Shown here piece after piece: positions 8,569-23,949 of a DNA stretch of 47,118 nucleotides (within the stretch, counting starts at the first letter, position 1; the number at the start of each line of letters is the position of its first letter). The notes below the pieces were generated by a model that saw nothing but the letters and a program-made list of their open reading frames with translations, was not told where the DNA came from and ran no database searches. A program made the position numbers and the translations under genes. Location: the NCBI GenBank assembly GCA_020629695.1, contig JAHDCV010000025.1, forward strand, positions 1 to 47,118, given 5' to 3'. Origin of the DNA: Acidimicrobiales bacterium. Lineage in GTDB: Bacteria > Actinomycetota > Acidimicrobiia > Acidimicrobiales > SZUA-35.

Positions 8569-9210
8569 TCAGATGACGATCTCCCCCGCATCGGGGATCA
8601 CCCGGACCTCGAGCCGTCGGCACCACCCCATGCGCACACCATCGGTCCACACCATGGTCGGTTTGTCGAACTCCGTCGTCCAGGACGAGGACGCGAAGCT
8701 CGACACGTCCGGATGTGGCAGGTGCGAGCCGGTGCGGGCCCGCTTGCGGAACTCGGGCCACTCCCGGGTCGAGATCGAGCCGTCGGTCACGTCGAGCCGG
8801 CCATCGTTCGGATGCCCCTTCGGGGCGAGATACAGATCGCCGTGCCACGCGGCGTTCATCACGACCACGAACCGGCCCCGCCAGGGCCGCGAGGACAGCC
8901 GACGACGGCTCCGGTGGGCGACGCAGTGCGCGAGGAACGGACGCGGTGGCCCGCCGTCGAGCATCGCGATGCCGAGATCGATCGGCACCACGGTGGCCTC
9001 CTCCCCCGCCAACACCTTGGCCTGTTGTGCCCCATCGGTGATGCCGAGCGTCGTGGCCATGTCCGTGCCGGGGGCGAGCGCCATACGAAACCGCTCGTCG
9101 GGAAGTGCCTGATGGAACGCCCGGGCGGCCGAGGTGTCGTCGAACCAGAGCGCCTGGGTGTCGATGAGCCGGCCGGGTCGGCCCCAGGCAGCGCCCTTCC
9201 GGATCGTCAC
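8569..9210 (-). CDS. diacylglycerol-kinase/YegS-like C-terminal domain protein
   Basis: 213 residues. The segment VVMNAAWHGDLYLAPKGHPNDGRLDV (first Val about residue 115) matches the C-terminal beta-sandwich of lipid kinases of the DAGK/YegS family, which usually reads N-x-R-y-ggg-l-P-A-dDG-LDv. The N-terminal ATP-binding half with its GGDGT motif is absent and no frameshifted remnant is visible upstream, where helY is intact. It may be a regulatory or lipid-binding domain on its own. The GTG start overlaps the helY stop (GTGA), indicating coupling. Confidence 0.6.
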   Translation of the reverse strand: MTIRKGAAWGRPGRLIDTQALWFDDTSAARAFHQALPDERFRMALAPGTDMATTLGITDGAQQAKVLAGEEATVVPIDLGIAMLDGGPPRPFLAHCVAHRSRRRLSSRPWRGRFVVVMNAAWHGDLYLAPKGHPNDGRLDVTDGSISTREWPEFRKRARTGSHLPHPDVSSFASSSWTTEFDKPTMVWTDGVRMGWCRRLEVRVIPDAGEIVI

Positions 9211-11888
9211 GGTGCCACCTCCACCTCGGCGGCGGGGAGGTCCGGATCCGTCTCGGTTGCGGCGCTGCCGTCGTCGGCGTCGTCCGCATCCTCCTCCGCC
9301 CCGACGGACTGGGCCGCCACCAGGTCGCGCATCACCGCATCCGCAGCGAGCCCGGCGCTGCGACGGGTCGCGGCGGCCGGGGCGAGCTTCGCGATCTGTC
9401 GGAGCAGGTCCACGAGTTGTCGGGCGGTCCTGACGAAGTCGCCGGCGGTGATGTCGGTGTCGTCGAGCACCATCGCGAGCTCTCCACCGGCCGCCCAGGC
9501 ATGAGCGAGATCCATGAAGCCGGCGTCCGGTTCGCGTGTCTCGGGCAGGTGGGCCCGTCGTTCGTCGGCGCGGAGCTCGCGATGGAGTCGGACCAGCGCC
9601 TTCATGCGCTTGTCGAGGGTGCGGGTCGGCAGACGGGTCCGGCCGACCTCACGACGCCGCTCGGAATACACCAGCGCCGACGCGAGTGCGGCGATCTCGG
9701 CGGGCGGGAGTTCGTCGAAGATCCCGTCCTCGATCGCCTCGACGCAGAAGAGATCCGACTCGTGATACAGCCGGGCCAACCGCTCCCCTCGGGGGGTCAG
9801 CTCCCACCCGTCGAGATGGCCCCACTCCTCGAGCAGCCCGATCACGCGGTCGAACTGGCCCGCCAAGGATCGACCGCGATCCTCTCCCGCCGACATCTTG
9901 GCGAGATCCGCGTCCATCCGGTCGAGGCGTTTCAGCTGCTTGATGACGGGCCGGGGGATGTCATCGGCCGACGTGATCACTCCGGACGGCCGGAGATCGG
10001 TCGGTCGCCGATTGGCGAGGCGGGTTCGGGCGAGGATCTTGGAGACCTCGTGGGCGAACACCATCGACTGGGGCAGATAGGGCTCGGGGAGATCGAGTTC
10101 GCCGGCGACGACGGGAGCGGCGACGAGCTGGGCCGGGGTGAGTTCGTGGACGTCACCGTCGTGGTCGACGACCCTCGCCCGGACCTGACCGCCCTTGCGG
10201 AACGCGACGCTGAGCACCGCGACCGGCGACGGCACGTCCTCGGCCGAGAGCCGGAGGATGTCGCCGGGGTTCGTGCGGGAGAGGGCGAACGCGATCGAGT
10301 CGCGGTCGTCCTCCGTCGCCTCGGGAGCGGCCAGCGCCGCCCGAAGCTCCGCCTCGGGTCCGTACTCGGCCTCGAGCCGCATCGCGATCTGGCGTCGACG
10401 GTCGATCAAGCGCTCCCTGGCCTGCTCACCCCGCACGACCTCGGCATCGCTGCGGAACTGGGCGAACGACAGATTGAGCAGCTGGCGGGCCCGCTCGGCG
10501 TCGTAGCGACGGACCAGGTTGGCGGCCATGTTGTAGGTGGGCCGGAACGACGAACGGAGCACGAAGTCCCGGCTCATCGCCAGGCCCGCGATCTGGTCGA
10601 AGGTGATGTACGGGGACCACAACACGACGGCTGTTCCGTGGGTGTCGATGCCCCGCCGTCCGGCACGCCCGGTGATCTGGGTGTACTGGGCCGGGCTCAG
10701 CATCTCGTGGTGCTCTCCCGTGAACTTCGACAACTTCTCGATGACGACGCTGCGGGCCGGCATGTTGATGCCGAGGGCCAGGGTCTCGGTCGCGAAGACG
10801 ACCTTGATCAGACCTTCGGCGAAAGCCCGTTCGACCGCTTCCTTGAACGGCGGGATGAGGCCCGCATGGTGGGGAGCGATCCCGGCGAGGCAACCGCGCT
10901 CGAAGGTCTCGTAGTCGAGCACCTCGCGGTCTTCGTCGGACAGTGACCCGAGGTGATCCTCGAGGATCTCCCGGATGCGTCGCTGCTCCTCGGCGTCGGT
11001 GAGCATCAGCCCGCCATCGACGCAGGCCTTCGCCGCATCGGAACATCCGGCGCGGGAGAAGATGAACACGATCGCAGGCAGGAGTTCCTGTTTGCGCAGC
11101 ATCCGCACCACATCGAGCCGATGTGGTGTCCGCCACCGCTTCTTGTCGCCCTTCGAGCCACCCCGCCCACTCCGCCCGCGGCCGCCCCGGAGCGCCCGGA
11201 AGTCGTGGTCGAAGCGATGCCCGTCCGGGTTCGGTCGGCCGCCGACGACGGTTCGCAGCAGGTGCTGATCGTCGCGGCCGCCCCGTTCGGCGATCAGGTA
11301 GTGGTGGTCGAGCTCGACCGGACGGGTGTGTTCGACCACGAGCCCCGTCGCCCCCCGGACCGTCGTCATCCATTCGGCCAGCTCGGCCGCGTTCGAGACG
11401 GTGGCGGACAGGCACACGAGCTGGATCGTGGCCGGGAGGTGGATGATGACCTCCTCCCACACCGGACCCCGGTAGGCGTCCTGGAGGTAGTGCACCTCGT
11501 CGAGCACCACGGCGTCGAGCTCGCTGAGCGGATTGCCCGCGTACAGCATGTTGCGCAACACCTCGGTCGTCATCACCACGATCGGCGCGTCGGGATTGAT
11601 GGCGTTGTCACCCGTCAGGAGGCCGACTCGGTCGGCGCCGTGGTCGTCCACCAGTTCGCCGAACTTCTGGTTCGACAGGGCCTTGATCGGCGTCGTGTAG
11701 AAGAGTCGGCGTCCCTTGCGGAGCGCTCGATCGACGGCGTAGGAGGCGACCAGCGTCTTGCCGGCACCGGTCGGTGCGGCGACGATCACGTGTTCACCGG
11801 CGTCGAGGAGCTCGAACGCCTCGATCTGGAACCGGTCGGGGGTGAAGCCGAGCGCGTCGACGAATGCGGCGCGGGCGGAGTCGCTCAT
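9207..11888 (-). CDS. helY: Ski2/HelY-type DEVH-box helicase
   Basis: 893 residues. Superfamily 2 motifs in order: Q-type lead FQIEAFELL, Walker A APTGAGKT (K44), TTPIKALSNQ (Ia), DEVH (130-133), SAT (III), and the motif VI region TGRAGRRGIDT. The C-terminal third is a DSHCT-type helical domain. Its nearest known relative is mycobacterial HelY and the RNA helicases Ski2/Mtr4, so RNA unwinding or decay is likely. Gene order pafBC-tat-helY is standard in actinobacteria, which supports the name. The start overlaps the tatC stop (ATGA). Confidence 0.92.
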   Translation of the reverse strand: MSDSARAAFVDALGFTPDRFQIEAFELLDAGEHVIVAAPTGAGKTLVASYAVDRALRKGRRLFYTTPIKALSNQKFGELVDDHGADRVGLLTGDNAINPDAPIVVMTTEVLRNMLYAGNPLSELDAVVLDEVHYLQDAYRGPVWEEVIIHLPATIQLVCLSATVSNAAELAEWMTTVRGATGLVVEHTRPVELDHHYLIAERGGRDDQHLLRTVVGGRPNPDGHRFDHDFRALRGGRGRSGRGGSKGDKKRWRTPHRLDVVRMLRKQELLPAIVFIFSRAGCSDAAKACVDGGLMLTDAEEQRRIREILEDHLGSLSDEDREVLDYETFERGCLAGIAPHHAGLIPPFKEAVERAFAEGLIKVVFATETLALGINMPARSVVIEKLSKFTGEHHEMLSPAQYTQITGRAGRRGIDTHGTAVVLWSPYITFDQIAGLAMSRDFVLRSSFRPTYNMAANLVRRYDAERARQLLNLSFAQFRSDAEVVRGEQARERLIDRRRQIAMRLEAEYGPEAELRAALAAPEATEDDRDSIAFALSRTNPGDILRLSAEDVPSPVAVLSVAFRKGGQVRARVVDHDGDVHELTPAQLVAAPVVAGELDLPEPYLPQSMVFAHEVSKILARTRLANRRPTDLRPSGVITSADDIPRPVIKQLKRLDRMDADLAKMSAGEDRGRSLAGQFDRVIGLLEEWGHLDGWELTPRGERLARLYHESDLFCVEAIEDGIFDELPPAEIAALASALVYSERRREVGRTRLPTRTLDKRMKALVRLHRELRADERRAHLPETREPDAGFMDLAHAWAAGGELAMVLDDTDITAGDFVRTARQLVDLLRQIAKLAPAAATRRSAGLAADAVMRDLVAAQSVGAEEDADDADDGSAATETDPDLPAAEVEVAP

Positions 11889-12676
11889 GCGGCGGCGCGC
11901 TGCAGGCGTCGCTTCCGCAAGCGCGAGCCGATCAGGATCGAGACCTCGTAGAGCACGTACATCGGTCCGCCGATGGCGAGCAGCGTGAACGGATCCCCGG
12001 TCGGGGTGACGACCGCCGAGAGGATCACGATGCCGACGAAGGAGATGCGGCGATTCGACCGCAGGGTCTCGGTCTGCACGATGCCGACCATCTGCAGGAA
12101 GGTCAACACGACGGGCAGCTCGAAGGCGATCCCGAAGGCGAGCACCATCTTCACGAAGAACCCGAGGTACTGCTTCGGGCTGAAGAACGCCTCGAACCGG
12201 TCCTGACCCGCGACGTTCACCAGCACGTCGAGGGCCCGGGGCATGAACAGATAGGCCAGCACCATGCCGATCAGCAGCAGCACGACCGACGCAGCGAGAA
12301 ACGGGATCAGGACCTTGCGTTCGTTCGGGTAGAGGCCCGGCAGGATGAACTTGCCGATCTGATACATCACGAACGGCAGGGCGATGATGGCTCCGCCGTA
12401 GAGCGACACCATCAGCAGGGCGTTGAACGGATCGAGCGGATCGGTGGCGAGCAGGACGCAGTCGTTCTCCGGCCGGATGTCGCAGTACGGCGTGAGCAGG
12501 AAGTCGAACACCGGACCGTTGAAGATCATGATGACCGTGGCGACCACGAAGATCGCGATCACGGACCGGATCAGCCGGGAGCGGAGCTCCTGGAGGTGAT
12601 CGATGATCGACATCTCGTCGGGATCGACCGGGGCGGCATCGTCGTCGGACTTGCGGAACGGGATCCTGAGCTTCAC
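11885..12676 (-). CDS. tatC: twin-arginine translocase subunit TatC
   Basis: 263 residues with six predicted transmembrane segments. Signature features: the N-terminal cytoplasmic HLQELRSRL (Glu is part of the signal-peptide site), and FILPGLYPNERK between TM2 and TM3. TatC recognises twin-arginine signal peptides and with TatB and TatA exports folded proteins. A loop of about 30 residues before TM2 holds a Cys pair (YCDIRPENDC), which could form a disulfide outside. The GTG start overlaps the tatB stop as GTGA. Confidence 0.96.
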   Translation of the reverse strand: MKLRIPFRKSDDDAAPVDPDEMSIIDHLQELRSRLIRSVIAIFVVATVIMIFNGPVFDFLLTPYCDIRPENDCVLLATDPLDPFNALLMVSLYGGAIIALPFVMYQIGKFILPGLYPNERKVLIPFLAASVVLLLIGMVLAYLFMPRALDVLVNVAGQDRFEAFFSPKQYLGFFVKMVLAFGIAFELPVVLTFLQMVGIVQTETLRSNRRISFVGIVILSAVVTPTGDPFTLLAIGGPMYVLYEVSILIGSRLRKRRLQRAAA

Positions 12677-13221
12677 GACGCCATCCCGCCCTCGGGGTCG
12701 TCTTCGCTCACGGTGGCCTCACTCACGGTGGCATCGCTCACGGTGGCCTCCCCCTGGCCCTCATCGCCCGCCTCACCGTCGGTGGCGTCGAGGTCCGACC
12801 CCTCCGCCGCCTCCTCGGCGGGCTGGGAGAGGCCCAACACCGAGGTCGTCGAGTTCTGCGAGAAGGGTTCGATCCGAGGGGCCTCGTCGGTGCGCGACGC
12901 ACCCTCGGCGTCGGCAGCCTCGTCGACGCTCGAGGCGCTGCCGCCAGCTGTCGAACCGCCGTCCGGATCCTCGATCACGCGCTTCAGTTCGGCGGCCGGC
13001 TCCCGGAAGGTGGCCGAGATCTCGTCGAGCGGCTCCCGCACCGACGCTTCGAGCTCGTCGATGCCGGCCATGAACTCCGTGCGCAGGCCGCTCGTCATCG
13101 AACGGAACTGCGACGCCCACCGGCCCATCTTCCGCACGACGCTCGGAAGCTGGTCCGGACCGACGGCGATGAGGGCAACGATGACGATGACCAGGAACTC
13201 TGGACCGCCGACCTGGAACAT
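12673..13221 (-). CDS. tatB: Sec-independent translocase TatB
   Basis: 182 residues: one N-terminal transmembrane helix (about 8-21) with the GPEF start and E8, the GPDQLP hinge, then an amphipathic helix and a long acidic, Ser/Ala-rich tail. Glu at position 8 and the long helix favour TatB over TatA, and no separate tatA is in the window. The tail contains an ATVSE-type triple repeat. ATG 13221 has TAGTCT 6 nt upstream. It is the first gene of the tatB-tatC-helY-lipid-kinase-like run, joined by 4-nt overlaps. Confidence 0.88.
   Translation of the reverse strand: MFQVGGPEFLVIVIVALIAVGPDQLPSVVRKMGRWASQFRSMTSGLRTEFMAGIDELEASVREPLDEISATFREPAAELKRVIEDPDGGSTAGGSASSVDEAADAEGASRTDEAPRIEPFSQNSTTSVLGLSQPAEEAAEGSDLDATDGEAGDEGQGEATVSDATVSEATVSEDDPEGGMAS
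12707..12751. repeat. three 15-bp tandem repeats within tatB
   Basis: Three copies of CTCACGGTGGCnTCn (12707-12721, 12722-12736, 12737-12751) encode a repeated A-T-V-S-D/E unit in the disordered TatB tail. Copy number may vary between strains without shifting the frame. Confidence 0.8.
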
Positions 13222-13227
13222 GCCCTC

Positions 13228-13233
13228 AGACTA
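13228..13233 (-). promoter_or_regulatory. -10 element, leaderless tatB promoter
   Basis: TAGTCT on the minus strand, 6 nt before the tatB ATG, just downstream of a terminator hairpin. Confidence 0.45.
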
Positions 13234-13239
13234 ACGGCC

Positions 13240-13287
13240 CGAACGCGCTCGACCCCGGCTCCGGGAGCCGGGGTCGATGAGCGTTCG
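13240..13287 (-). terminator. strong hairpin after the zinc-ribbon gene
   Basis: A 12-bp perfect stem CGACCCCGGCTC / GAGCCGGGGTCG with a 3-nt loop, extended by CGAACGC / GCGTTCG across a small internal loop. It lies between the upstream gene's stop (13316) and the tatB promoter and has no U-tract. Confidence 0.7.
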
Positions 13288-13315
13288 GTGTTCGGGCGAG
13301 GCGTGCGGGTCGGCC

Positions 13316-13648
13316 TCAGCCCTGACTGAATTCGGCGAGGGCCTGTTCGAGACGACGATCGTCCTGGAGCAGGTGGTGGAAGTCGAGGAGATCGTCGTGG
13401 GTGATCGGCTCGCCCGATCGGATCTCGTGCAACTCCGCAGGGAGTCGCCAGGTCGTGAACTCCACGCCCGATGCGATCAACAGATCGATCGTGCGGGTCT
13501 CGGCCGGCTTGACCACGGTCATCCGGCAGGACGGGCAGGTGAAGGAGTACTCCCCCGCTTCGGTGTCATCACAGATTCGCACCCGGACGTCGGCCGTTGT
13601 CAGCTCGACATCACCGCAATCGGGGCAGCTCGCTCGAATCGTCGCCAT
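13316..13648 (-). CDS. small zinc-ribbon protein of unknown function
   Basis: 110 residues. The N-terminal half has two CxxC knuckles, CPDC (about 8-11) and CPSC (about 38-41), making a zinc ribbon. The C-terminal half is helical, including LLDFHHLLQDD. Similar small zinc ribbons are common in actinobacteria and have no settled function. The start is ATG 13648, with AGGAG 8 nt upstream; an in-frame start 8 codons earlier lacks a ribosome site. It ends at a strong hairpin and is transcribed apart from tatB. Confidence 0.75.
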   Translation of the reverse strand: MATIRASCPDCGDVELTTADVRVRICDDTEAGEYSFTCPSCRMTVVKPAETRTIDLLIASGVEFTTWRLPAELHEIRSGEPITHDDLLDFHHLLQDDRRLEQALAEFSQG

Positions 13649-13788
13649 GAGGTGGGCTCCTGTCGTCCACATCGGAGTGCGGGTCCGCTACCCGCTCACA
13701 CACAGGTCGGCACACCTCGGGGGTGTCTTGAGCAACCAGGGGCTCCGATCCCGAGAGACGGGCCGAACGGACTAGGAGCGGGCATCCT

Positions 13789-14532
13789 GTGGGGGTGCCG
13801 AGACATCCGAGCCTTCTCGAACGACCCATCCTCTTCGCTCACCGTGGCGCCCGGGCCCAGCTCCCCGAGAACACGATCCCGGCGTTCGAATTGGCGGTCC
13901 GACTCGGGGCCACCGGCCTCGAGAGCGACGTCTGGGTCACCACCGACGGTGTGGCCGTGCTCGACCACGACGGCGAGTTCGGCACCTGGCCGTTCAAGAA
14001 GCCGATCTCGGCGCTGCGACGGGACGAGCTCCCCGTGCACGTGCCGACCCTGAGCGAGTACTACGACGTCCTCGGTCCGTCGATCCCGTTGTCGCTCGAC
14101 GTGAAAGACGCCGCGGCCTTCGACGCCACGGTGGCCGCCGCACGGGCGGCCGGAGCGGAGGAGCAGCTCTGGCTCTGCCATCCCCGGCTCGAGGTCCTGC
14201 GGGAGTGGCGGGAGCACACCACGGCGAAACTCGTGGACTCCACACGGCTGAACAAGCTCGATGGCGGCCCGGAGCGACGGGCCGCGGAGTTGCGGGACCT
14301 GGGGATCGAGGGGATCAACCTCCGGCTACCGGATTGGAACGCCGGTCTCGTCACCCTGTTCCACCGGTTCGGTCGCACGGCGTTCGGGTGGGACGCCCAA
14401 CACGTACGGGAGATCGTCGCGTTGATCGACATGGGAATCGACGGGCTCTACTCCGATCACAGCGACCGCATGGCCGAGAGCTTCCAGGCCATGTTCGACG
14501 ACCACGTCGATCGAGATGAGGTCGACGAGTGA
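13789..14532 (+). CDS. glycerophosphodiester phosphodiesterase family
   Basis: 247 residues with the GDPD signature: HRGA (about 18-21), LPENTIPAFELA, then LESDVWVTTDG and LDHD. These supply the catalytic His pair and metal-binding Glu/Asp. The fold cleaves glycerophosphodiesters to glycerol-3-phosphate and an alcohol. No signal peptide is visible, so the protein is probably cytoplasmic. The start is GTG 13789, with AGGAG 10 nt upstream. Its stop overlaps the RNase start (GTGA). Why a GDPD should be coupled to an exported RNase is unclear. Confidence 0.88.
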   Translation: MGVPRHPSLLERPILFAHRGARAQLPENTIPAFELAVRLGATGLESDVWVTTDGVAVLDHDGEFGTWPFKKPISALRRDELPVHVPTLSEYYDVLGPSIPLSLDVKDAAAFDATVAAARAAGAEEQLWLCHPRLEVLREWREHTTAKLVDSTRLNKLDGGPERRAAELRDLGIEGINLRLPDWNAGLVTLFHRFGRTAFGWDAQHVREIVALIDMGIDGLYSDHSDRMAESFQAMFDDHVDRDEVDE

Positions 14533-15005
14533 AGCTGTCGCGTCGTGACCTGATCGCCTATGGCGTCGTGGCCCTCCTGGCCGTCGTCGGCCTGTTCTGG
14601 CAGAACGCCGGATCGACCACCGCCGACGACGGCGCGACCGACACGCCGGTCGCCGCCGAGTCCGCCGACGGCGCACGGGTCGTGCTGGACGCCGGCAACA
14701 TCACGCTGCGCTCGGACCAGGTGTCGGATCTGCCGCCGATCGCGCTGGGCCAGCTCCCTCCCGAGGCGATCGACACCCTCGAGCTGATCGAGGTCGACGG
14801 CCCGTACCCGTTCGATCGGGACGGCATCACCTTCCAGAACCGGGAAGGGTTACTGCCCGACCGCGAACGTGGCCACTACGAGGAGTTCACCGTCATCACC
14901 CCCGGTCTCGATCACCGGGGGGCTCGTCGTATCGTCGCCGGCGACGACGGCGAGCGGTACTACACCGACGACCACTACGACTCGTTCTCGGAGATCACGC
15001 CATGA
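14529..15005 (+). CDS. exported guanyl-specific ribonuclease (barnase/RNase Sa type)
   Basis: 158 residues: an N-terminal signal or anchor (charged MKLSRRD, hydrophobic about 8-24), a Ser/Thr/Asp-rich linker, then an RNase Sa-like domain from about 65. Catalytic residues line up with RNase Sa: E119 (EEFTV), R130 and R134 (HRGARRI), H149 (YYTDDHY). GITFQNRE matches the guanine-binding segment. It has no Cys, so it lacks the RNase Sa disulfide. SRRDLI resembles a twin-arginine motif. The start overlaps the GDPD stop and its stop overlaps the barstar start, so enzyme and inhibitor should be made together. Confidence 0.9.
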   Translation: MKLSRRDLIAYGVVALLAVVGLFWQNAGSTTADDGATDTPVAAESADGARVVLDAGNITLRSDQVSDLPPIALGQLPPEAIDTLELIEVDGPYPFDRDGITFQNREGLLPDRERGHYEEFTVITPGLDHRGARRIVAGDDGERYYTDDHYDSFSEITP

Positions 15006-15367
15006 GTTGGCTCGACGATCCCGGTGTCACCGAAACCGATCGCCCGCTCGCTGCGCTGGCCCACGATCTCGCCCTCGACGAGACACCGTGGACGATCGCA
15101 CACGTCCGCCTCGGCGAGGTCGTCGACAAGGCCGGGTTGCTGGCGGCGCTGCGGGCCGGTCTGGCCGCACCGGATCACATGGGATCGAACTGGGACGCCG
15201 TGGCCGACGTCCTCGGTGACCGGAGCGCCCCGCTCGTGGTGTGTCTGGACGGGGAGGTCGCCGGGAGTGCCCGTCGAGACCTCGACGTCCTGATCGACAT
15301 CGTCGACGAACAGACCAGGATCACCCGGCCGCTCACGCGAGCGATCAGAGTGCGTCGACCCGATTGA
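15002..15367 (+). CDS. barstar-family ribonuclease inhibitor
   Basis: 121 residues. The barstar core is GSNWDAVADVLGD (about 61-73), with D65 and D69 at the positions of barstar D35 and D39, which plug the barnase active site. The preceding segment DKAGLLAALRAGLAAP matches barstar helix 1. It has no signal peptide, so it acts in the cytoplasm, protecting the cell from the RNase encoded just upstream. The ATG overlaps the RNase stop (ATGA). Its 3' end overlaps the convergent lepB by 23 nt. Confidence 0.92.
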   Translation: MSWLDDPGVTETDRPLAALAHDLALDETPWTIAHVRLGEVVDKAGLLAALRAGLAAPDHMGSNWDAVADVLGDRSAPLVVCLDGEVAGSARRDLDVLIDIVDEQTRITRPLTRAIRVRRPD

Positions 15368-16709
15368 GCGGCCAGAACAGGACGAATGCCCGCCCGACGA
15401 TGCGTCCCCTCGGGATCGTGCCGATCCAACGACTGTCGAAGGACTGATCCCGGTTGTCACCCATCACGAAGAACTCGTCGTCGGGCACCGGTGTCGACGG
15501 GTAGTCGTCCATGACGACGTCGGGGTCGAGGTAGGGCTCGTCCAGCAACAGGCCATCGATGTAGACCGCCCCGGCGCGGATCTCGACGGTCTCGCCCGGC
15601 AGTCCGATCACCCGCTTGATGAGGTCGTCGGTGTCGCCCGGGGTGTTGGGATCCCGGCGGAACACGATCACGTCACCACGATTGACGTCGTGCAGCCGGT
15701 AGCTGAGCTTGTTGACCAGCACCCGGTCGTTCTCCGTGAGCGTGGACTCCATCGACTCCGACGGGATGTAGAACGACTGGATGACGAAGTAGCGCAGGAT
15801 GATCGCGACGAGGAACGCCCCGACGAAGACGGCGATCCACTCGGCGAGCACGCGAACCGGGCCCGGTTGGTCGTCGATCTCCTCGATCTCACCGTTGCCG
15901 AGGTCACCGATGGTGGACGGGTCACTCCCCGCGGAGGCCACGGGCTCGGCCGGCACCTCGGCGGTCGGAACAGGTTCGGGAACGGCCGGTTGGGCCGACT
16001 CCGGCTCGGGGGCGACCGGCGATGGCGAGGGCTCCGGGTCCGGTGTCGGCATCTCGGGCTCGTCGGATGACACGGTTGGCTCCAGGGATGCCGGCGGGAT
16101 CGTCGGGGACACCCCGTCGTTGTTCGGCGTGCTCGGTGGGGGTGCTTGAGAAACGACTGCGGGGGCCGTCTCCGATCCGGACGCCTGTGAGGTGGCCCGC
16201 GTCGCGTCGGGTGCCGGAAGCGGCATCCCGGGCACCGATGGTGGAGGCGCCGAGGCCTCGAGGCCGGGGAAGAGTGCGGGCGGCGAGGGTGGGCGGTCGT
16301 CGATCGGGTTCCCGGCTGGACCGAAGATGGTGGTCGTCGGCTCGCTTCGACGTTCGAGCCGCAGCTCGGATCCGATGTCGAACCCGGTCGGCTCCGACTC
16401 GACCGGTTCGGGCCCCGGCGACACGACCTCGTCTCGCACCCCCGGCTCCGGTGAGGGCTCGGGGTCCGGGTTCGTGGCCGGTGACGCGGTCACGTCACCA
16501 GCAGCGACCTCGAAGGGCCGGTATCTCCGGCCGCCGAGCGGATTCACCGCCGGCCCGTCGGCGGTGCCGGGCGTCGATCCGTCCGCATTCGGTCGGTCCG
16601 GAGCGGCCCTCGGAGGGGGCGTGGCCGATGCCGGAGCTTCCGGAGGGTCACCGAGCACGGCCTCGATCAAGGCCTCGGAGATCCAGTGGTCGTCGGCGGG
16701 ATCGGGCAT
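15345..16709 (-). CDS. lepB: signal peptidase I with long Pro-rich N-terminal extension
   Basis: 454 residues. The C-terminal about 170 residues are a complete type I signal peptidase: one transmembrane helix (about 283-303), catalytic Ser319 in PSESM, the general base Lys365 in LIKRVIGLPGE, and the box MGDNRDQSFDSR. It cleaves signal peptides outside the membrane. The first about 280 residues are low-complexity Pro, Glu, Ser and Thr and should face the cytoplasm; typical enzymes of 200-300 residues lack this. The start is uncertain: ATG 16709 has TATCGT 9 nt upstream, and a GTG at 16802 would add 31 residues. The 3' end overlaps barstar. Confidence 0.9.
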   Translation of the reverse strand: MPDPADDHWISEALIEAVLGDPPEAPASATPPPRAAPDRPNADGSTPGTADGPAVNPLGGRRYRPFEVAAGDVTASPATNPDPEPSPEPGVRDEVVSPGPEPVESEPTGFDIGSELRLERRSEPTTTIFGPAGNPIDDRPPSPPALFPGLEASAPPPSVPGMPLPAPDATRATSQASGSETAPAVVSQAPPPSTPNNDGVSPTIPPASLEPTVSSDEPEMPTPDPEPSPSPVAPEPESAQPAVPEPVPTAEVPAEPVASAGSDPSTIGDLGNGEIEEIDDQPGPVRVLAEWIAVFVGAFLVAIILRYFVIQSFYIPSESMESTLTENDRVLVNKLSYRLHDVNRGDVIVFRRDPNTPGDTDDLIKRVIGLPGETVEIRAGAVYIDGLLLDEPYLDPDVVMDDYPSTPVPDDEFFVMGDNRDQSFDSRWIGTIPRGRIVGRAFVLFWPLNRVDAL

Positions 16710-16718
16710 GGGACCGCC

Positions 16719-16724
16719 ACGATA
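16719..16724 (-). promoter_or_regulatory. -10 candidate for lepB
   Basis: TATCGT on the minus strand, 9 nt before ATG 16709. This would give a leader of about 2 nt, and it favours ATG 16709 over GTG 16802 as the start. Confidence 0.3.
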
Positions 16725-16852
16725 ACCCTCGGGCCTGTCCGGCAGGGGGAGGTCTCGGGGCGCCGTCACCGACGTCGGGGACACGGTCCGCTTGCGGCGC
16801 ACCGGTCACCCACGCAGACTCCCCGCACCGCCACACGACCGACGGAGCCCCC

Positions 16853-17191
16853 ATGCCCAGAGATCGACACGAACTCGCACTCGTCACGATCGCCGTGGCC
16901 TTCAGCCTCTTCTTCGCCGCCGTCGTGATCCCGGCACTGCTGGACGACCGCGACGTGATCGGTGCGTTCGCCGCCGGCTTCGACAACCCCTACGCGTCGG
17001 GCTACTCGTTCGACGTGATCCTCTGCTGGGTCACCCTGGTCGTGCTGATCGTCCACGATGCCCGCACCCACGGCGTGCAACACGGGTGGCGCTTCGCGGC
17101 GATCGGGCTCGTCCCCGGCGTGGCCGTCGGTCTCCCGCTCTATCTGATCTCGCGGCGTCGTCAGCTCGACGCCGTGGTGCCCGACGTGTAG
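16853..17191 (+). CDS. DUF2834-like small membrane protein
   Basis: 112 residues with three predicted transmembrane segments (about 8-28, 52-68, 80-100). The order N-x-x-A-S-x-x-S-x-D in the second loop and a terminal LPLYLISRRR match the DUF2834 family pattern of small integral membrane proteins of unknown function. The start is ATG 16853, with GGAG 5 nt upstream. It is transcribed divergently from lepB, and its last 31 nt overlap the convergent pafC. Confidence 0.72.
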   Translation: MPRDRHELALVTIAVAFSLFFAAVVIPALLDDRDVIGAFAAGFDNPYASGYSFDVILCWVTLVVLIVHDARTHGVQHGWRFAAIGLVPGVAVGLPLYLISRRRQLDAVVPDV

Positions 17192-18144
17192 CGGGCACGG
17201 ACCCTGGCCGCCGCTTCGGCGCCGACGGCCCCGAGGTCGACACCGTCCGACACCGGACCGACCATCGCGATCGATCGCACCGACGGGCCGAGGCGCACGA
17301 GCAGGCGCTCGAGCCAGGCCGTTCCGGTCACGGCCAGGACGACACGCGCCCCACCGCCATCGACGGGCGTGACCGCCTCGGTCGGGTAGTACTCGGTCAC
17401 CCACATCGCATCGGGGGCGAGGTCGAGCTCGACCCGGGGATGGCGATCGTCGGGGTGGAACACCGCTTCGCCGGCATCGGCCGGCGGTCGCTGTGCGCTG
17501 GCCTCGCCGGTCGGGCGGGTCGCGGCGACACGGTCGATCCGGAAGAGGCGTTCGCCCTCCGCGAGATGGCACCACGCATCCACGTACCAGGCGCCGGCAT
17601 CGGCGAAGACCCGCCAGGGAGCAATCCGCCGGGTCGTCTCGACATCACGGTTGTACGAGTAGTAGTCGATCTCGACCTCGGTGCCCGCCGATGCCGCGTC
17701 GCGGAGCACGGCGAGTGTCTCGGCATCACCGTCGCCGAGGTCGACGTCGACCCGGTCGGCGGTGTCGACACCGAGTGCACCGGCCAGCTTGCCGAGCGCC
17801 CGGGGCAACGCACCATCTGCGTCGGCGCCGGGCACCGACGCCAACCCGTCCGACGAGACGAGCAAGGCGAGCGCCTGCGGGGGCGTGAGCTTCAAGGGAC
17901 GCTTGAAGAAGTCGGCGTAGTGGATCCAGACCCGTCCATCCTCGATGACCACATCGACGAGGTTGTCGGGGGTGTAGGGCGGCAGACCGACGAGCCACAC
18001 GACGTTGAGGTCATCGAGCAACTCCGCTTCGGAGATGCCGAACCGGGCCGCCGCGTCGGCCACGGCCACTCCAGGGTGGGCCACCAGCCACGGGACCATC
18101 GACAGCACGCGCTTCATGCGGTCGCCCGCGGTCGCGCGGCTCAT
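17161..18144 (-). CDS. pafC: WYL-domain transcriptional regulator PafC
   Basis: 327 residues: N-terminal winged helix (about 1-60), a middle helical segment, a WYL domain (about 170-240) with YYSYNRD, WYVDAWC and LFRIDRV, and a C-terminal WCX-type domain. With PafB it forms the PafBC activator of the RecA-independent DNA-damage response in mycobacteria, where single-stranded DNA binding to the WYL domain is the proposed signal. The start is ATG 18144, overlapping the pafB stop (ATGA). The 3' end overlaps the DUF2834 gene by 31 nt. Confidence 0.93.
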   Translation of the reverse strand: MSRATAGDRMKRVLSMVPWLVAHPGVAVADAAARFGISEAELLDDLNVVWLVGLPPYTPDNLVDVVIEDGRVWIHYADFFKRPLKLTPPQALALLVSSDGLASVPGADADGALPRALGKLAGALGVDTADRVDVDLGDGDAETLAVLRDAASAGTEVEIDYYSYNRDVETTRRIAPWRVFADAGAWYVDAWCHLAEGERLFRIDRVAATRPTGEASAQRPPADAGEAVFHPDDRHPRVELDLAPDAMWVTEYYPTEAVTPVDGGGARVVLAVTGTAWLERLLVRLGPSVRSIAMVGPVSDGVDLGAVGAEAAARVRARYTSGTTASS

Positions 18145-19064
18145 GCGGACACCACCCGGTCGAGCCAATCGACCAGATCATCCCGCAGCTCCTGCGGCGA
18201 CAGCAGTTCGGCGTGGTCCAACAGGTCGAGGACGAACGATCGGAACGCGTCCCGATTCCGCACCGCCACCTCGAACAGTGTCGCGGCGTCGTCGGACTCG
18301 ACCACCGCGTCGTCGCCGAGCTGCTGGCGAGCCCAGGGCGCCCGGATCGCATCGACCCGCAGCCGGGCCGTGATCGGCTCGTCCTCGCCGTATTCCCAGG
18401 AATGCCGGCGGGCACCCGATGCCGGTGGTGGCTCGGAAGACGCCGAGCCACGAGCGCCGTCGATCAGGACCGCGCCGTCGATGCGGTCGAGGCGGAAGTT
18501 CCGCTCTTCGCCCCGGGAGTGATCGAACGCCGTGAGATACCAACGACCCCGTTGGAAGTCGAGCCGCCACGGGTCGAGCTCGCGGTCGGCGTCGCGATAC
18601 CGGAACCGGACCCGTTGCCGGCCGGAGATCGCGGTGAACAACGGCACGAGCGCCGGGTCGGACGGCACCTCGGTGATCGGCGCCGTCGGCGCGCCGTCGG
18701 GTGTCGCCCCGCCACCGAGCTTCCAGAACGCCTCGGCGTCGTCGAGTCCCTCCAGACGGACCGCCAACGAGGCGAGATGGAGCGCGGCGAGCTCATCGGG
18801 GTCGAGGCCCGGATCGGTGAGGTAGTACTCCTCGGGCGGAATCCGGTAGCCGTCCACCGGCGGATCCGTCCCGGGCACCCGTTCGACCGCGAGCGGGATA
18901 CCGAGGGTGCGCAGGTCGTCCTTGTCCCGTTCGAAGGTCCGCCGGAACGAAGGACCCGGCGGCGGGTACCCCTCGATCTGTGTCCGGAGTTCCTCAGCCG
19001 ACAGCGGTCGACGGGTCTCGAGCAGGACCGCGGTCAGATTCAGCAGACGTTCCAGCTTGCTCAC
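18141..19064 (-). CDS. pafB: WYL-domain transcriptional regulator PafB
   Basis: 307 residues with the same plan as PafC: winged helix (about 1-70, including FRRTFERDKDDLRTLG), a WYL domain (about 150-200: RFRYRD, DPWRLDFQRGRWYLTAFD, NFRLDRI), and a C-terminal domain. It pairs with PafC. The GTG start is 9 nt after the pafA stop, and the stop overlaps pafC, so pafA-pafB-pafC form one transcript. Confidence 0.93.
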   Translation of the reverse strand: MSKLERLLNLTAVLLETRRPLSAEELRTQIEGYPPPGPSFRRTFERDKDDLRTLGIPLAVERVPGTDPPVDGYRIPPEEYYLTDPGLDPDELAALHLASLAVRLEGLDDAEAFWKLGGGATPDGAPTAPITEVPSDPALVPLFTAISGRQRVRFRYRDADRELDPWRLDFQRGRWYLTAFDHSRGEERNFRLDRIDGAVLIDGARGSASSEPPPASGARRHSWEYGEDEPITARLRVDAIRAPWARQQLGDDAVVESDDAATLFEVAVRNRDAFRSFVLDLLDHAELLSPQELRDDLVDWLDRVVSA

Positions 19065-19073
19065 GCCAGGCCC

Positions 19074-20456
19074 TTACAACGACGAGATCAGGGTGTCGAC
19101 CCGGGGGTCGTCATGACGGAACGGATCCTTGCAGAGCACCGTCCGTTGGGCCTGGTCATTCAGCTTCAGGTGCACCCAGTCGACCGTGTAGTCCCGCTTG
19201 CGGTCCTTGGCGGCGCGGATGAAGTCCCCGCGGAGCTTCGCCCGGGTCGTCTGGGGCGGGGTCTCGATCGCCGCGAACATCTCGGCGTCGGTGAGGGTCC
19301 GCTCGACGAGCCCCCGATTCGACATCTTGTTGAACACACCCTGGTCGTGGCGGACGTCGTGGTACTGGAGGTCGAGCAGCGCGACGCGGGGGTCGGCGAG
19401 CGTCAGGTCGTGGCGTGCGCGGAACTTCTCGATCAGGTTGTGCTTGATGACCCAGTCGAGCTCACGGTCGAGCGAGAACGGATCGCGCTCCAGACCCTCC
19501 ATGACGTGTTTCCACATCTCGAGCGCCTTCATCTCGTCCGGTGGGAGCCCCTTCGTCTCGGCGTAGCGGATCGCACGCTCGAGGAACTCCGACTGGATCT
19601 CGAACGCCGAGGCCTCCCGGCCGTTGGCGAGGCGCACACGCCGCTTGAACGACAGATCGTGACTGATCTCGCGGATCGCCCGGATGGGGTTCTCGAGGGT
19701 CATGTCCCGCAGCACGACCGAGTCGTCTTCGACCATGCGCAGCAGGATCGCCATCGCACCGACCTTGAGATAGGTCGTGTACTCGCTCATGTTCGAGTCG
19801 CCGACGATGACGTGCAGACGGCGGAAGTGTTCGGCGTCCGCATGCGGTTCGTCGCGAGTGTTGATGATCGGGCGGGAACGCGTCGTCGCCGACGACACGC
19901 CCTCCCAGATGTGCTCGGCCCGCTGCGACACCACGAACATCGAGCCACGGGCGGTCGACAGCACCTTGCCGGCACCGGCATAGATCTGTCGCGACACCAG
20001 GAACGGAATCAGGATCTCGTTGTAGTGGGCCAGATCGTCGCCCCGCGTCGTCAGGTAGTTCTCGTGACAGCCGTAGGAGTTGCCCGCGGAGTCGGTGTTG
20101 TTCTTGAACAGGTGGATCGTGCCGCGGATGCCTTCGTCCCGGAGGCGTTCCTCGGCCGATTCGAGCAGCTGTTCGAGGATCCGCTCCCCCGCCTTGTCGT
20201 GGACGACGACCTCACCGATCGTGTCGCACTCGGCGGTCGCGTATTCGGGGTGCGAACCGACGTCGAGATACAGCCGGGCGCCGTTCACGAGGAACACGTT
20301 CGAGCTGCGCCCCCACGAGACCACACGGCGGAAGAGGTAGCGAGCCACCTCGTCCGGACTCAGGCGGCGCTGGCCGCGCAGTGTGCAGGTGACGCCGTAT
20401 TCGGTCTCGATGCCGTAGATGCGGCGGGAGAACCCTTCCGGGCCGGCGGGCGGCAC
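19074..20456 (-). CDS. pafA: Pup--protein ligase PafA
   Basis: 460 residues of the glutamine-synthetase-like fold. [11 protein letters not shown] at the N-terminus carries the ATP/Mg-binding Glu, and [13 protein letters not shown] holds the catalytic Asp. [10 protein letters not shown] and [13 protein letters not shown] are further conserved blocks. It joins the C-terminal Glu of Pup to substrate lysines using ATP. The start is GTG 20456, one base after the prcA stop; a longer in-frame version would overlap prcA. Unlike Dop it lacks the extra loop after the first strand. Confidence 0.97.
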
Positions 20457-20457
20457 G

Positions 20458-21135
20458 TCAGGCGAGCAGCGACGTGATGTCGCCGTTCTCGAGGCGACGG
20501 AAGCGGCGACCATCGCCGTCCCGATCGAGCACGGCGACCTCGATCTCGTCGACGGTCAGGCCACGGTCCGGACCGGCCAGCGCGTCGATCGCCGCCCGCA
20601 GCGCAGCGCCGAGGCCCATGTCGGCCTGGACCGCACCGTCGAGGCGACCACGGATCGCTTCCGCGTCACCGCCGAGCACGGTCACGAGTGTCTCGTCCGA
20701 CACCGAGCCGTCGTAGCGGATGTGGAAGAGCCGATCGCCGCTCTGTTCGGTGCCGACCTCGGCCACCAGGATCTCGACCTCCATCGGCTTGGCGTCGTGG
20801 GTGAACACCTGACCGAGGATCTGGGCGTACTGGTTGGCGAGCGCCTGGGCGTCGACGTCGTCACGGCTGTAGTTGAAGCCCTTGAGATCGGCGTGGCGGA
20901 CGCCGGCGATGCGGAGCTGGTCGTACTCGTTGTACTTGCCGACGCCGGCGAAGGCGATGCGGTCGTAGATCTCGGAGACCTTGCGGAGGTTGCGGGACGG
21001 GTTCTCGGCGCAGATGAGGATTCCGTCCGCACACTCGATGGCGACGAGCGACCGGCCCCGGGCGATGCCCTTCTGGGCGTAATCGGCCCGGTCCTTCATG
21101 AGTTGTTCGGGGGCGACGTAGAACGGCATGTTCAT
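20458..21135 (-). CDS. prcA: proteasome subunit alpha PrcA
   Basis: 225 residues. The N-terminal helix ([22 protein letters not shown]) is typical of actinobacterial alpha subunits, which form the gated outer rings that dock ARC. No catalytic Thr is expected or seen. The C-terminus lacks the long acidic tail of some homologues. ATG 21135 has GAGGAG about 8 nt upstream; a second ATG is two codons in. It follows prcB by 11 nt. Confidence 0.96.
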
Positions 21136-21146
21136 GGTGAGGCTCC

Positions 21147-21971
21147 TCAGTCGCCGACGGAGTCGGACGTGGTCGAGCCGCCGTGGCGGACGGCGATGGC
21201 GTCGACGACGGCATCGAATCGCTCCGACACCTCCGCCTCGGCGAGTTCGGTGAACCCGTCGGCGGTGATCGTCGCCACGATCGGGAAGATGCCCCGCATC
21301 GAATCCGGCCCACCGGTGGCGGAGTCGGCGTCGGCGGCTTGGAACAACGACTGGATGACGAGCTCGACGACCTCGTCACGGGTCATGCCGGCACGCTGGC
21401 CCAGCTTGATGACCGTGCCGGCGTGCAGGCTGCCCGAGCCGGAGACCACGTGATCCTCCTCCTCGTAGCGACCACCGGTCACGTCGAAGGCCCAGAGGCG
21501 GCCCTTGTCCCGCTTCCGGTCGTAGCCGGCGAAGATCGGCACCACGGCCATGCCCTGCATCGCGGCGGGCAGATGGTTGCGGACCATGCCGGAGAGCTGG
21601 TTGGCCTTGCCCTCGAGCGAGAGCGTATGGCCCTCGACCTTCTCGTAGTGCTCGAGCTGGAGCTGGAACAGCTTCACCATCTCGATGGCCGGACCTGCCG
21701 CGCCGGCGATCGCCACACCCGACCAGCGGTCGGCGGCGAACACCTTCTTCATGGTGCGGTGGCTGATGAGATTGCCCGAGGTGGCGCGTCGGTCGCCGGC
21801 GATCACGACGCCGTCGGCGTACTTGACCGCCACGACGGTCGTGCCGTGGGTGATCTCGAGCTTGTCGGACGCGTCGGCCGGCAGATCGACCGGCCCCTGC
21901 CCGACGGATCGGAGCAGCGAGGCGAAGCTCGGGCCCGGATCCTCGGTGGGATGGAAGAGCGGAAGGGTCAC
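21147..21971 (-). CDS. prcB: proteasome subunit beta PrcB
   Basis: 274 residues from GTG 21971. A propeptide of about 43 residues ends at HG before the catalytic Thr (HGTTVVAVKYADG; T44), which is exposed by self-cleavage. GDRRAT supplies the Asp and KKVF the Lys of the active site. The late block DADSATGGPDSMRGIFP is diagnostic of the family. The start chosen has TAGTCT exactly 7 nt upstream, which fits the leaderless pattern of the window. ATG 22010 is the alternative; it adds 13 residues and has a purine tract only 1-2 nt before it. Confidence 0.95.
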   Translation of the reverse strand: MTLPLFHPTEDPGPSFASLLRSVGQGPVDLPADASDKLEITHGTTVVAVKYADGVVIAGDRRATSGNLISHRTMKKVFAADRWSGVAIAGAAGPAIEMVKLFQLQLEHYEKVEGHTLSLEGKANQLSGMVRNHLPAAMQGMAVVPIFAGYDRKRDKGRLWAFDVTGGRYEEEDHVVSGSGSLHAGTVIKLGQRAGMTRDEVVELVIQSLFQAADADSATGGPDSMRGIFPIVATITADGFTELAEAEVSERFDAVVDAIAVRHGGSTTSDSVGD

Positions 21972-21978
21972 GGGTTCG

Positions 21979-21984
21979 AGACTA
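21979..21984 (-). promoter_or_regulatory. -10 candidate for prcB, inside the pup-prcB interval
   Basis: TAGTCT on the minus strand, 7 nt before GTG 21971. It would let prcBA-pafABC be transcribed apart from pup. Confidence 0.4.
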
Positions 21985-22026
21985 GCGATCCGACCTCGGT
22001 GACTCTCCATCTTCCCCCAGACGGGA

Positions 22027-22221
22027 TTACTCGCCGCCCTTCTGGATGTAGGACTTCACGAAGTCCTCGGCGTTCGTCTCGAGCACGTCGTCGATCTCGT
22101 CGAGGAGGTCGTCGATGTCGGACTTGAGGGCTTCGCCGGCTTCGGCGTCGACGGGTGCTTCCTCGACGACCTCGTCGTTGCGCTGCGGCGACGGCTTGCG
22201 GATCTGTTCACGTTCGGCCAT
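22027..22221 (-). CDS. pup: prokaryotic ubiquitin-like protein Pup
   Basis: 64 residues: a disordered N-terminus, a central helical segment [23 protein letters not shown] that binds the ARC coiled coil, and the C-terminal KGGE. The last residue is Glu rather than Gln, so PafA can use it without prior deamidation by Dop. The start is ATG 22221, with AAGGGAGG 5-8 nt upstream. prcB follows 16 nt or 55 nt downstream depending on its start. Confidence 0.98.
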
Positions 22222-22308
22222 CGGTGGCCTCCCTTCGTCCCCCGGGGAAGCCGGGCGGTGTGAGTGCGCTCAGTGTGTCACGCCGCGTCGTCGGCGCACA
22301 GGTCGGAT

Positions 22309-22327
22309 GGTCGGCGGGGTACCGACC
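22309..22327 (-). other. stem-loop between dop and pup
   Basis: GGTCGG, a 7-nt loop, then CCGACC. It lies in the 153-nt space between dop and pup. It may be a weak terminator or an attenuating element that sets pup level relative to dop. No clear pup promoter was seen in the gap. Confidence 0.35.
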
Positions 22328-22374
22328 AACGTCCACGGATGACCGCCACGCCCGTGTCGCTCCGCATCGACGTT

Positions 22375-23886
22375 CTACGAGCCGAGCTTGGCCAGGAGGT
22401 CGGCGACGGTGTCGGAAGCGTCGAGCAGCTCACCCACGTGGGCCTCGGTACCCCGGCTCGGCTCGAGCATCGGCACCCGACGGAGCGGCTCGTCGCCGGT
22501 GTCGAACACGATCGAGTCCCAGTTCGCGGCGACCACGGCGCTCGTGTACTTCTGCAGGACCCTGCCCCGGAAGTACGCCCGGGTGTCGGTCGGTGGGGTC
22601 GTCTTGGCCGCCTGGACCTCGTCGTCGGTCGTGATCCGACGAAGCCCGACCTTGGCGGCGAGGCCCCGGCCGACCCGCAGGTCGTGGTACTGCAGATCGA
22701 GCGCCCGGAGGCGGTCATCGTCCCAGCCGCATCCGTGACGGGCCCGGAAGGCGTCGAACAGCCGCTTCTTGGCGACCCAGTCGATGCGGTCGGCGAGTGT
22801 CATCGGATCGGTGGCGAGTCCGTCGAGCACGAGCTGCCACTCGTCGAGCACGAGCCGACCGCTCCGCTCGCCGCCGACGAGATCGAAGCCGCGGGTCTCG
22901 GCCCAGGCGTGAGCCCGGGCGCAGAGGTCCTGCTGGATCTCGAGGGCGGTCATGGTCGAGCCGTCGGCCAGGGCCAGCGGCTTCGACAGCGTCAGGTCGT
23001 GCGACACGGCCCACATCGTCGGGACCGGGTCGTCGAGCACCGCGAGGTCGTCGAGCACGCCGTCTTCGAGCATGGCGAACACGAACTGGCTCGTGCCGAC
23101 CTTCAGCAACGTCGCGGTCTCGGACAGGTTGGCGTCGCCGACGATCACGTGGAGGCGGCGGTACTTCTTCGAGTCGGCGTGCGGCTCGTCGCGGGTGTTG
23201 ACGATCGGACGCTTCAGCGTCGTCTCGAGGCCGACCTCCTCTTCGAAGTGATCGGCACGCTGGGTGAGCTGGAACGGCACGTCGCCACCGAAGCCGGGCA
23301 GCTCGCAGCCGACCTTGCCGGCCCCGGTGAAGATCTGGCGGGTGACGAAGTGGGTCGTCGCGACGTCGATGATCCGACCGAAGGGCGTCTGGCGCTCGAG
23401 CAGGTAGTTCTCGTGCGTGCCGTAGGCGTTGCCCTTGCGGTCGGTGTTGTCCTTGTAGATCACGACCTCGGCGTCGCCGGGCAGCATCTTGTTGGCCGCC
23501 GCCATCGAGTCCCGCACGATCTCCTCGGCGGCCCGGTCGAACACGACGACGTCGCGGGCGCTCGTCACCTCGGGCGTCGAGATCTCCGGGTGGGCGTGGT
23601 CCACGTAGTAGCGGGCGCCGTTGGTCAACACCGTGTTGACGAGGTGCGTCTCGATCTCGGGTGGCATGGCGAACTCGGGCGAGAAGAGGTCGCGGGCGTC
23701 CGCGCCGGGCATCTCGTCGATGAAGTCCCAGGCGATCGGGCCGGTGTGGTCGTCGAGCGAGCCGACACCGGTCGCGACGTAGGCGTTGATCAGCAGCGAC
23801 GACGCCGAGACCGGGTTCCAGTCGGGTGCGCCGCGCACGATGATGCCGTACTCGGTTTCGATGCCACAGATCTTCGGGACCGCCAC
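22375..23886 (-). CDS. dop: depupylase/deamidase of Pup, Dop
   Basis: 503 residues, homologous to PafA. KICGIETEYG (5-14) carries the nucleotide-binding Glu. The stretch of about 35 residues after it is the Dop-loop region absent from PafA. YYVDHAHPEISTPE contains the catalytic Asp region. [10 protein letters not shown]-type and [15 protein letters not shown] blocks are shared with PafA. Dop cleaves Pup from substrates; with a Glu-ended Pup its deamidase role would be unnecessary. The start is GTG 23886, because TAGGGT lies 7 nt upstream. Confidence 0.96.
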   Translation of the reverse strand: MAVPKICGIETEYGIIVRGAPDWNPVSASSLLINAYVATGVGSLDDHTGPIAWDFIDEMPGADARDLFSPEFAMPPEIETHLVNTVLTNGARYYVDHAHPEISTPEVTSARDVVVFDRAAEEIVRDSMAAANKMLPGDAEVVIYKDNTDRKGNAYGTHENYLLERQTPFGRIIDVATTHFVTRQIFTGAGKVGCELPGFGGDVPFQLTQRADHFEEEVGLETTLKRPIVNTRDEPHADSKKYRRLHVIVGDANLSETATLLKVGTSQFVFAMLEDGVLDDLAVLDDPVPTMWAVSHDLTLSKPLALADGSTMTALEIQQDLCARAHAWAETRGFDLVGGERSGRLVLDEWQLVLDGLATDPMTLADRIDWVAKKRLFDAFRARHGCGWDDDRLRALDLQYHDLRVGRGLAAKVGLRRITTDDEVQAAKTTPPTDTRAYFRGRVLQKYTSAVVAANWDSIVFDTGDEPLRRVPMLEPSRGTEAHVGELLDASDTVADLLAKLGS

Positions 23887-23893
23887 GGGCCGC

Positions 23894-23899
23894 ACCCTA
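23894..23899 (-). promoter_or_regulatory. -10 element, leaderless dop promoter
   Basis: TAGGGT on the minus strand, 7 nt before GTG 23886. The same hexamer precedes aldh, arc and the GGDEF gene. Confidence 0.5.
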
Positions 23900-23949
23900 G
23901 GCGGGTGGTGTGCCCGAACATCATCCAGGCCCGGCGAGGCCACCCGACC

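Follow-up and report, generated by a model that had tools for sequence, protein, structure and literature searches.

A chromosomal gene pair for an RNase Sa-type ribonuclease and a barstar-family protein in an Acidimicrobiales bacterium

Simple barnase-barstar gene pairs form a long-described and widespread class (Zhang et al. 2012, PMC3482391). The secreted G-specific (binase-type) RNases of Bacillus are induced by phosphate starvation, and balifase is reported in one operon with its own inhibitor (PMC5021464); for Bacillus pumilus binase, no dedicated inhibitor is known (PMC8837141). The pair considered here lies in a stretch of 47,118 nucleotides, hereafter the window, of an Acidimicrobiales bacterium (GTDB lineage SZUA-35; assembly GCA_020629695.1, contig JAHDCV010000025.1). 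A preliminary description of this DNA rightly took barnase-barstar pairs to be known already, and it saw novelty in three features, namely a link to a glycerophosphodiester phosphodiesterase (GDPD), a missing disulfide and possible Tat export. Comparison with relatives removes all three of these apparent novelties.

Genes at the locus and their families

Three genes follow one another on the plus strand: a GDPD gene (13789-14532; PF03009, E 1.7e-18), a gene for an RNase Sa-type guanyl-specific RNase (14529-15005; PF00545, E 4.5e-21, 75.6 bits against a cut-off of 24) and a gene for a barstar-family inhibitor (15002-15367; PF01337, E 2.7e-10, 40.5 bits against a cut-off of 23.4), all scoring above the gathering thresholds. 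Neither the GDPD nor the barstar, which is predicted to be cytoplasmic, has a signal peptide. The 4-nt overlaps reported earlier were found exactly, with GTGA at 14529 joining the TGA stop of the GDPD gene to the GTG start of the RNase gene and ATGA at 15002 joining the RNase stop TGA to the barstar ATG. Co-transcription of the three genes in the window is likely. The convergent lepB gene for signal peptidase I (15345-16802, minus strand; TIGR02227, 1.3e-47), a neighbour only, overlaps the barstar 3' end with its own 3' end by 23 nt, and upstream lie tatC (11885-12676, minus strand; TIGR00945, 7.1e-55) and tatB (12673-13221, minus strand; TIGR01410, 56.8 bits against a cut-off of 56.5). In the family this neighbourhood is conserved: tatC, tatB and a zinc-ribbon gene share one strand, the GDPD, RNase and barstar genes come next, and lepB lies convergent to them. 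At two loci (L106 and L115), the place of the single lepB beside the cassette is taken by signal peptidase I genes in tandem, two or three in number. In the window, the cassette sits inside a larger actinobacterial Pup-proteasome/PafBC/tatBC/SF2 helicase cluster (9207-23943), which includes the SF2 helicase (9207-11888), PafC-like and WYL genes beyond lepB (17161-19064), Pup-ligase-family genes also beyond lepB (19074-20513 and 22375-23943) and a proteasome subunit (21147-22010).

By profile, residues and predicted fold, the second gene product is a member of the guanyl-specific RNase N1/T1 family (PF00545, RNase Sa type). After KLSRR comes a hydrophobic anchor or signal (residues 5-27, approximately), followed by an acidic low-complexity linker (about 28-65) and the catalytic domain (71-156), which aligns to RNase Sa with an E-value of 5.7e-29. 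The residues E119, R134 and H149 noted earlier are present and correspond in this alignment to the active-site residues E54, R69 and H85 of RNase Sa, and R130 and the guanine-binding E106 correspond to R65 and E41. AlphaFold2 predicts the domain with a pLDDT of about 97, an unbroken helix at residues 5-27 and a disordered linker; the model has the microbial RNase fold, its best Foldseek match being RNase Sa2 (rmsd 0.7, TMt 0.92). The protein contains no cysteine, as had been noticed, but there is nothing unusual in the missing disulfide, because cysteine is absent from 116 of 117 distinct homologue domains. Among these sequences, the disulfide of RNase Sa is the exception and not the reference.

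The third gene product is, on the evidence of its profile, its DxxxD motif and its predicted fold, a diverged barstar-family protein. N63, D65 and D69 correspond to N33, D35 and D39 of barstar, so that both key aspartates of the DxxxD inhibitory helix are present, as claimed. N63 and D65 are invariant in 70 of 70 homologues, and D69 is D or E in all of them, although most of these proteins are just 17-36% identical to the barstar of the window. The fold was predicted because a sequence search of solved structures gave no real match for the barstar, and the top PDB fold matches of the resulting model (pLDDT 87, pTM 0.79) are barstars (TMt 0.63-0.82).

The RNase-barstar pairing among relatives

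Judged by co-occurrence and adjacency, the pairing of RNase and barstar genes is beyond chance. Across the order (298 genomes), 20 genomes have both, 3 the RNase only, 4 the barstar only and 271 neither (P = 2.8e-24); in the 39 genomes of the family, counted by Pfam, the corresponding numbers are 23, 3, 0 and 13 (P = 6.9e-8). One of the three family exceptions (G307) has a diverged barstar directly after the RNase (L202), which the Pfam model missed. Adjacency with overlap or near-overlap is found in 104 of 105 same-strand pairs from Actinobacteria, Chloroflexota and Proteobacteria: a possible barstar start falls between -20 and +30 nt from the RNase stop in these 104 and at -4 in 81 of them. 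Since the start counted was the script's pick nearest -4, and since ATGA and GTGA overlaps come cheaply in a high-GC genome, where any base but C before TGA makes a start codon, it is the conserved frame relation and not the 4-nt length that constitutes evidence. Gene order, co-occurrence and overlap conservation thus support the coupled pair proposed in the preliminary description, and binding between the two products may be presumed.

The inhibitor gene is nonetheless the less settled partner. In genus g8, it lies on another contig in all five RNase-bearing genomes (G235, G273, G306, G305 and G304; L197-L201), and the RNase is still in the tat-GDPD-lepB neighbourhood; because the flanks of the barstar site align among the five genomes, a single old relocation is suggested. 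Two genomes, G071 and G214 (both 94-95% complete), have an intact RNase gene at a locus (L109 and L115) that leaves no space for a barstar, and none was detected elsewhere in either genome. Either the RNase is tolerated in these bacteria or another inhibitor exists, and on the evidence of these two genomes the RNase does not depend strictly on the barstar everywhere. The sequences diverge in the same uneven manner. Of the proteins measured in the family, the RNase (its domain) is the most conserved (mean identity 0.70, with 0.58 for TatC and 0.49 for GDPD on the same family pairs) and the barstar the least (0.33); between the window and its congener, the identities are 0.89 for the RNase and 0.43 for the barstar. 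RNase identities do not track those of TatC (Spearman -0.1, calculated as a test of lateral transfer), a value that may reflect saturation by constraint. An enzyme that is conserved, beside an inhibitor that drifts, moves and is sometimes missing, suits steady work outside the cell better than an arms race.

Export, anchoring and alternative readings

A strong hydrophobic segment precedes the RNase domain in 112 of 117 homologues. In the window, residues 1-27 read MKLSRRDLIAYGVVALLAVVGLFWQNA, of which residues 4-9 (SRRDLI) had been put forward as a possible twin-arginine signal. RRDLI does fit the TatP-type pattern applied here (RR.[FGAVML][LITMVF]), and this much is common to the sole congener, whose corresponding N-terminus (L025, same contig as in G307; MKFSRRDLLVYGLMAVFAVAVLWWQNG) contains SRRDLL. 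However, the pattern is rare among relatives: it occurs in 7 of these 112 homologues (the window, the congener and five others), in some of them upstream of the likely start, and within the family it is confined to the window, the congener, L123 (a lipoprotein) and L212, so the motif is not conserved among orthologues as would be expected of a Tat substrate. The most hydrophobic 16-mer has a value of 2.66 against 1.14-1.81 in ten Tat signals of E. coli, a rough yardstick by which this h-region is more than moderately hydrophobic. Furthermore, 42 of the 112 homologues, mostly from Streptomyces, have a lipobox-like cysteine, and many of those without a lipobox have a transmembrane segment that ends in aromatic (W/F) and polar residues and shows no obvious cleavage site. 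Given the rarity of the Tat pattern, the high hydrophobicity, the predicted helix and these lipobox or transmembrane ends in homologues, a membrane anchor with unfolded export is preferred, and the N-terminal segment reads better as such an anchor than as a Tat signal. Sequence and model make it probable that the RNase sits on the outer face of the cell membrane; a weak site for signal peptidase I may, however, lie around residues 28-34 (AGS or TTA), in which case the enzyme could be released. As for the Streptomyces relatives, most of them (L052-L103, among L025-L104) have an LAGC- or LTGC-like lipobox and resemble surface lipoproteins adjoining a barstar gene.

The alternatives to an anchored enzyme with a cytoplasmic inhibitor differ in where they place the RNase and in what they ask of its neighbours. 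If the RNase folded in the cytoplasm, was inhibited there by the barstar and was then exported folded through the adjacent TatBC, the barstar being stripped or released, the twin arginines would be accounted for, a cysteine-free, fast-folding enzyme would suit the route, and tatC-tatB lies 1.3 kb away; yet tatBC is just as near in relatives without the arginine pair and in genomes without the RNase, and together with the rarity of the pattern and the hydrophobicity of the segment this makes such a route quite unlikely. A literature search on barstar and twin-arginine found nothing relevant. Tat as a general export route was rejected on the same two grounds, pattern and hydrophobicity, and Tat export as a property of the system is not supported, although Tat may be used in the window genus, in which the arginine pair is kept in the one congener. 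A different suggestion is that GDPD and RNase act jointly on phosphodiesters as a phosphate-scavenging operon. The overlapping genes in the window and the same-strand adjacency of GDPD and RNase in 22 family loci agree with it, as does the assignment of binase-like RNases to the Bacillus PhoP regulon in work cited by PMC5021464, but the GDPD lacks an export signal and would work in a different compartment from the RNase. Moreover, GDPD runs directly into lepB without the pair in seven genomes, the RNase is inverted beside GDPD in three, G309 has the pair and no such GDPD, and no GDPD-like ORF lies within 3 kb of RNase loci outside the family. A joint operon of this kind is therefore unlikely. 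On account of these loci, GDPD was rejected as an obligate functional partner, and its link to the RNase is best read as a common location that one family has inherited; the GDPD is a co-directional neighbour from a conserved locus, there mainly by position. Looked for in other genomes, as had been suggested earlier, this gene order belongs to a neighbourhood conserved in the family, and GDPD is lacking at homologous loci outside it; what had seemed a novel link is a positional effect, pair and GDPD each also occurring without the other. A literature search on barstar and GDPD returned only the polymorphic-toxin survey PMC3482391.

That same survey describes simple barnase-barstar pairs as a possible incipient toxin-immunity order, and the locus might accordingly encode a competition effector, with the RNase entering neighbour cells and the barstar shielding kin. 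The toxin gene precedes the inhibitor gene, as such a role would have it, and some RNase domains of the same order have HINT-type sequence or surroundings like those of polymorphic toxins (L124 and L125). These two are distant RNase homologues that resemble polymorphic-toxin ends; L125 has a HINT-like sequence upstream and barstar-like ORFs nearby, and in the genome of L124 the barstar is on another contig. In the window, however, there are neither N-terminal trafficking or repeat domains nor a variable tip, only anchor, linker and RNase domain, and the cluster, a housekeeping neighbourhood, contains no delivery domain or secretion-system gene. It is also the barstar that diversifies, whereas the RNase does not, and the lack of RNase polymorphism argues somewhat against a competition toxin. 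Hence, this role seems improbable. Even less can be said for a type II toxin-antitoxin module acting inside the cell. Its outline would be matched by a toxin gene and a neutraliser gene that are both small and overlap, but the toxin bears an N-terminal membrane segment (in most homologues, too, the domain follows a strong hydrophobic stretch), its gene comes first, and the inhibitor is sometimes absent. We consider it highly improbable.

Proposed function and relation to known systems

It is very likely, in our assessment, that the locus is a chromosomal simple barnase-barstar pair with an anchored external RNase and a cytoplasmic barstar, a model in which the parts shown here are the protein families with their residues and folds, the order and co-occurrence of the genes, and the conserved frame overlap. 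The first gene of the pair would encode an RNase Sa-type enzyme, guanyl-specific and metal-independent, whose hydrophobic N-terminus would carry it through the membrane, most likely in an unfolded state by way of Sec/YidC. This segment would probably remain as an anchor, N-in and C-out, with the disordered acidic linker behind it, and the tethered enzyme would cut RNA outside the cell. The barstar, translated from the overlapping start, would stay in the cytoplasm and plug the active site of any RNase folded before export, with D65 and D69 facing R130, R134 and H149. As to the role, scavenging of RNA or phosphate, or clearance of surface RNA, is slightly preferred over attack on competitors, although inspection by eye showed no PHO-type repeat upstream of the GDPD gene.

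As a tentative generalisation, barstar-paired barnase-type RNases outside Bacillus might predominantly be surface-tethered (transmembrane or lipoprotein) housekeeping enzymes under strong constraint, with a cytoplasmic inhibitor that drifts, relocates and is sometimes lost. Such a pair would protect or feed the cell at its own surface and would not be a secreted weapon, and in the window genus the tether may have become a Tat-type signal. What keeps the locus interesting is that most barstar-paired RNases appear to be tethered at the surface, and that the enzyme is conserved whereas its movable inhibitor changes fast. The natural pairs, including the inhibitor-free ones, offer a test of how much inhibitor an exported RNase requires.

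Compared with RNases Sa, Sa2 and Sa3 of Streptomyces (PF00545), the window RNase has a catalytic domain about 52-54% identical over the fold and the same active-site and guanine-binding residues; it differs in having no disulfide (the position of Sa Cys7 is Ala72), in its N-terminal anchor and acidic linker, and in adjoining a barstar gene. With barnase-barstar of Bacillus amyloliquefaciens and with binase/balifase, it shares the plan of an exported G-specific RNase without cysteine and an intracellular inhibitor that uses D35 and D39. However, the window RNase is closer to RNase Sa than to barnase (E 0.009) and is probably membrane-anchored, and the window barstar is only about 20% identical to that of B. 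amyloliquefaciens in a structural alignment. The likeness is closest to the simple pairs surveyed as Tox-Barnase/Imm-Barstar (PMC3482391), which have the same gene order, the same families and a wide distribution, and from which the window pair, having no polymorphic delivery part, differs only in genomic address. The window pair belongs to this described class, and what is new is this member at a new genomic address.
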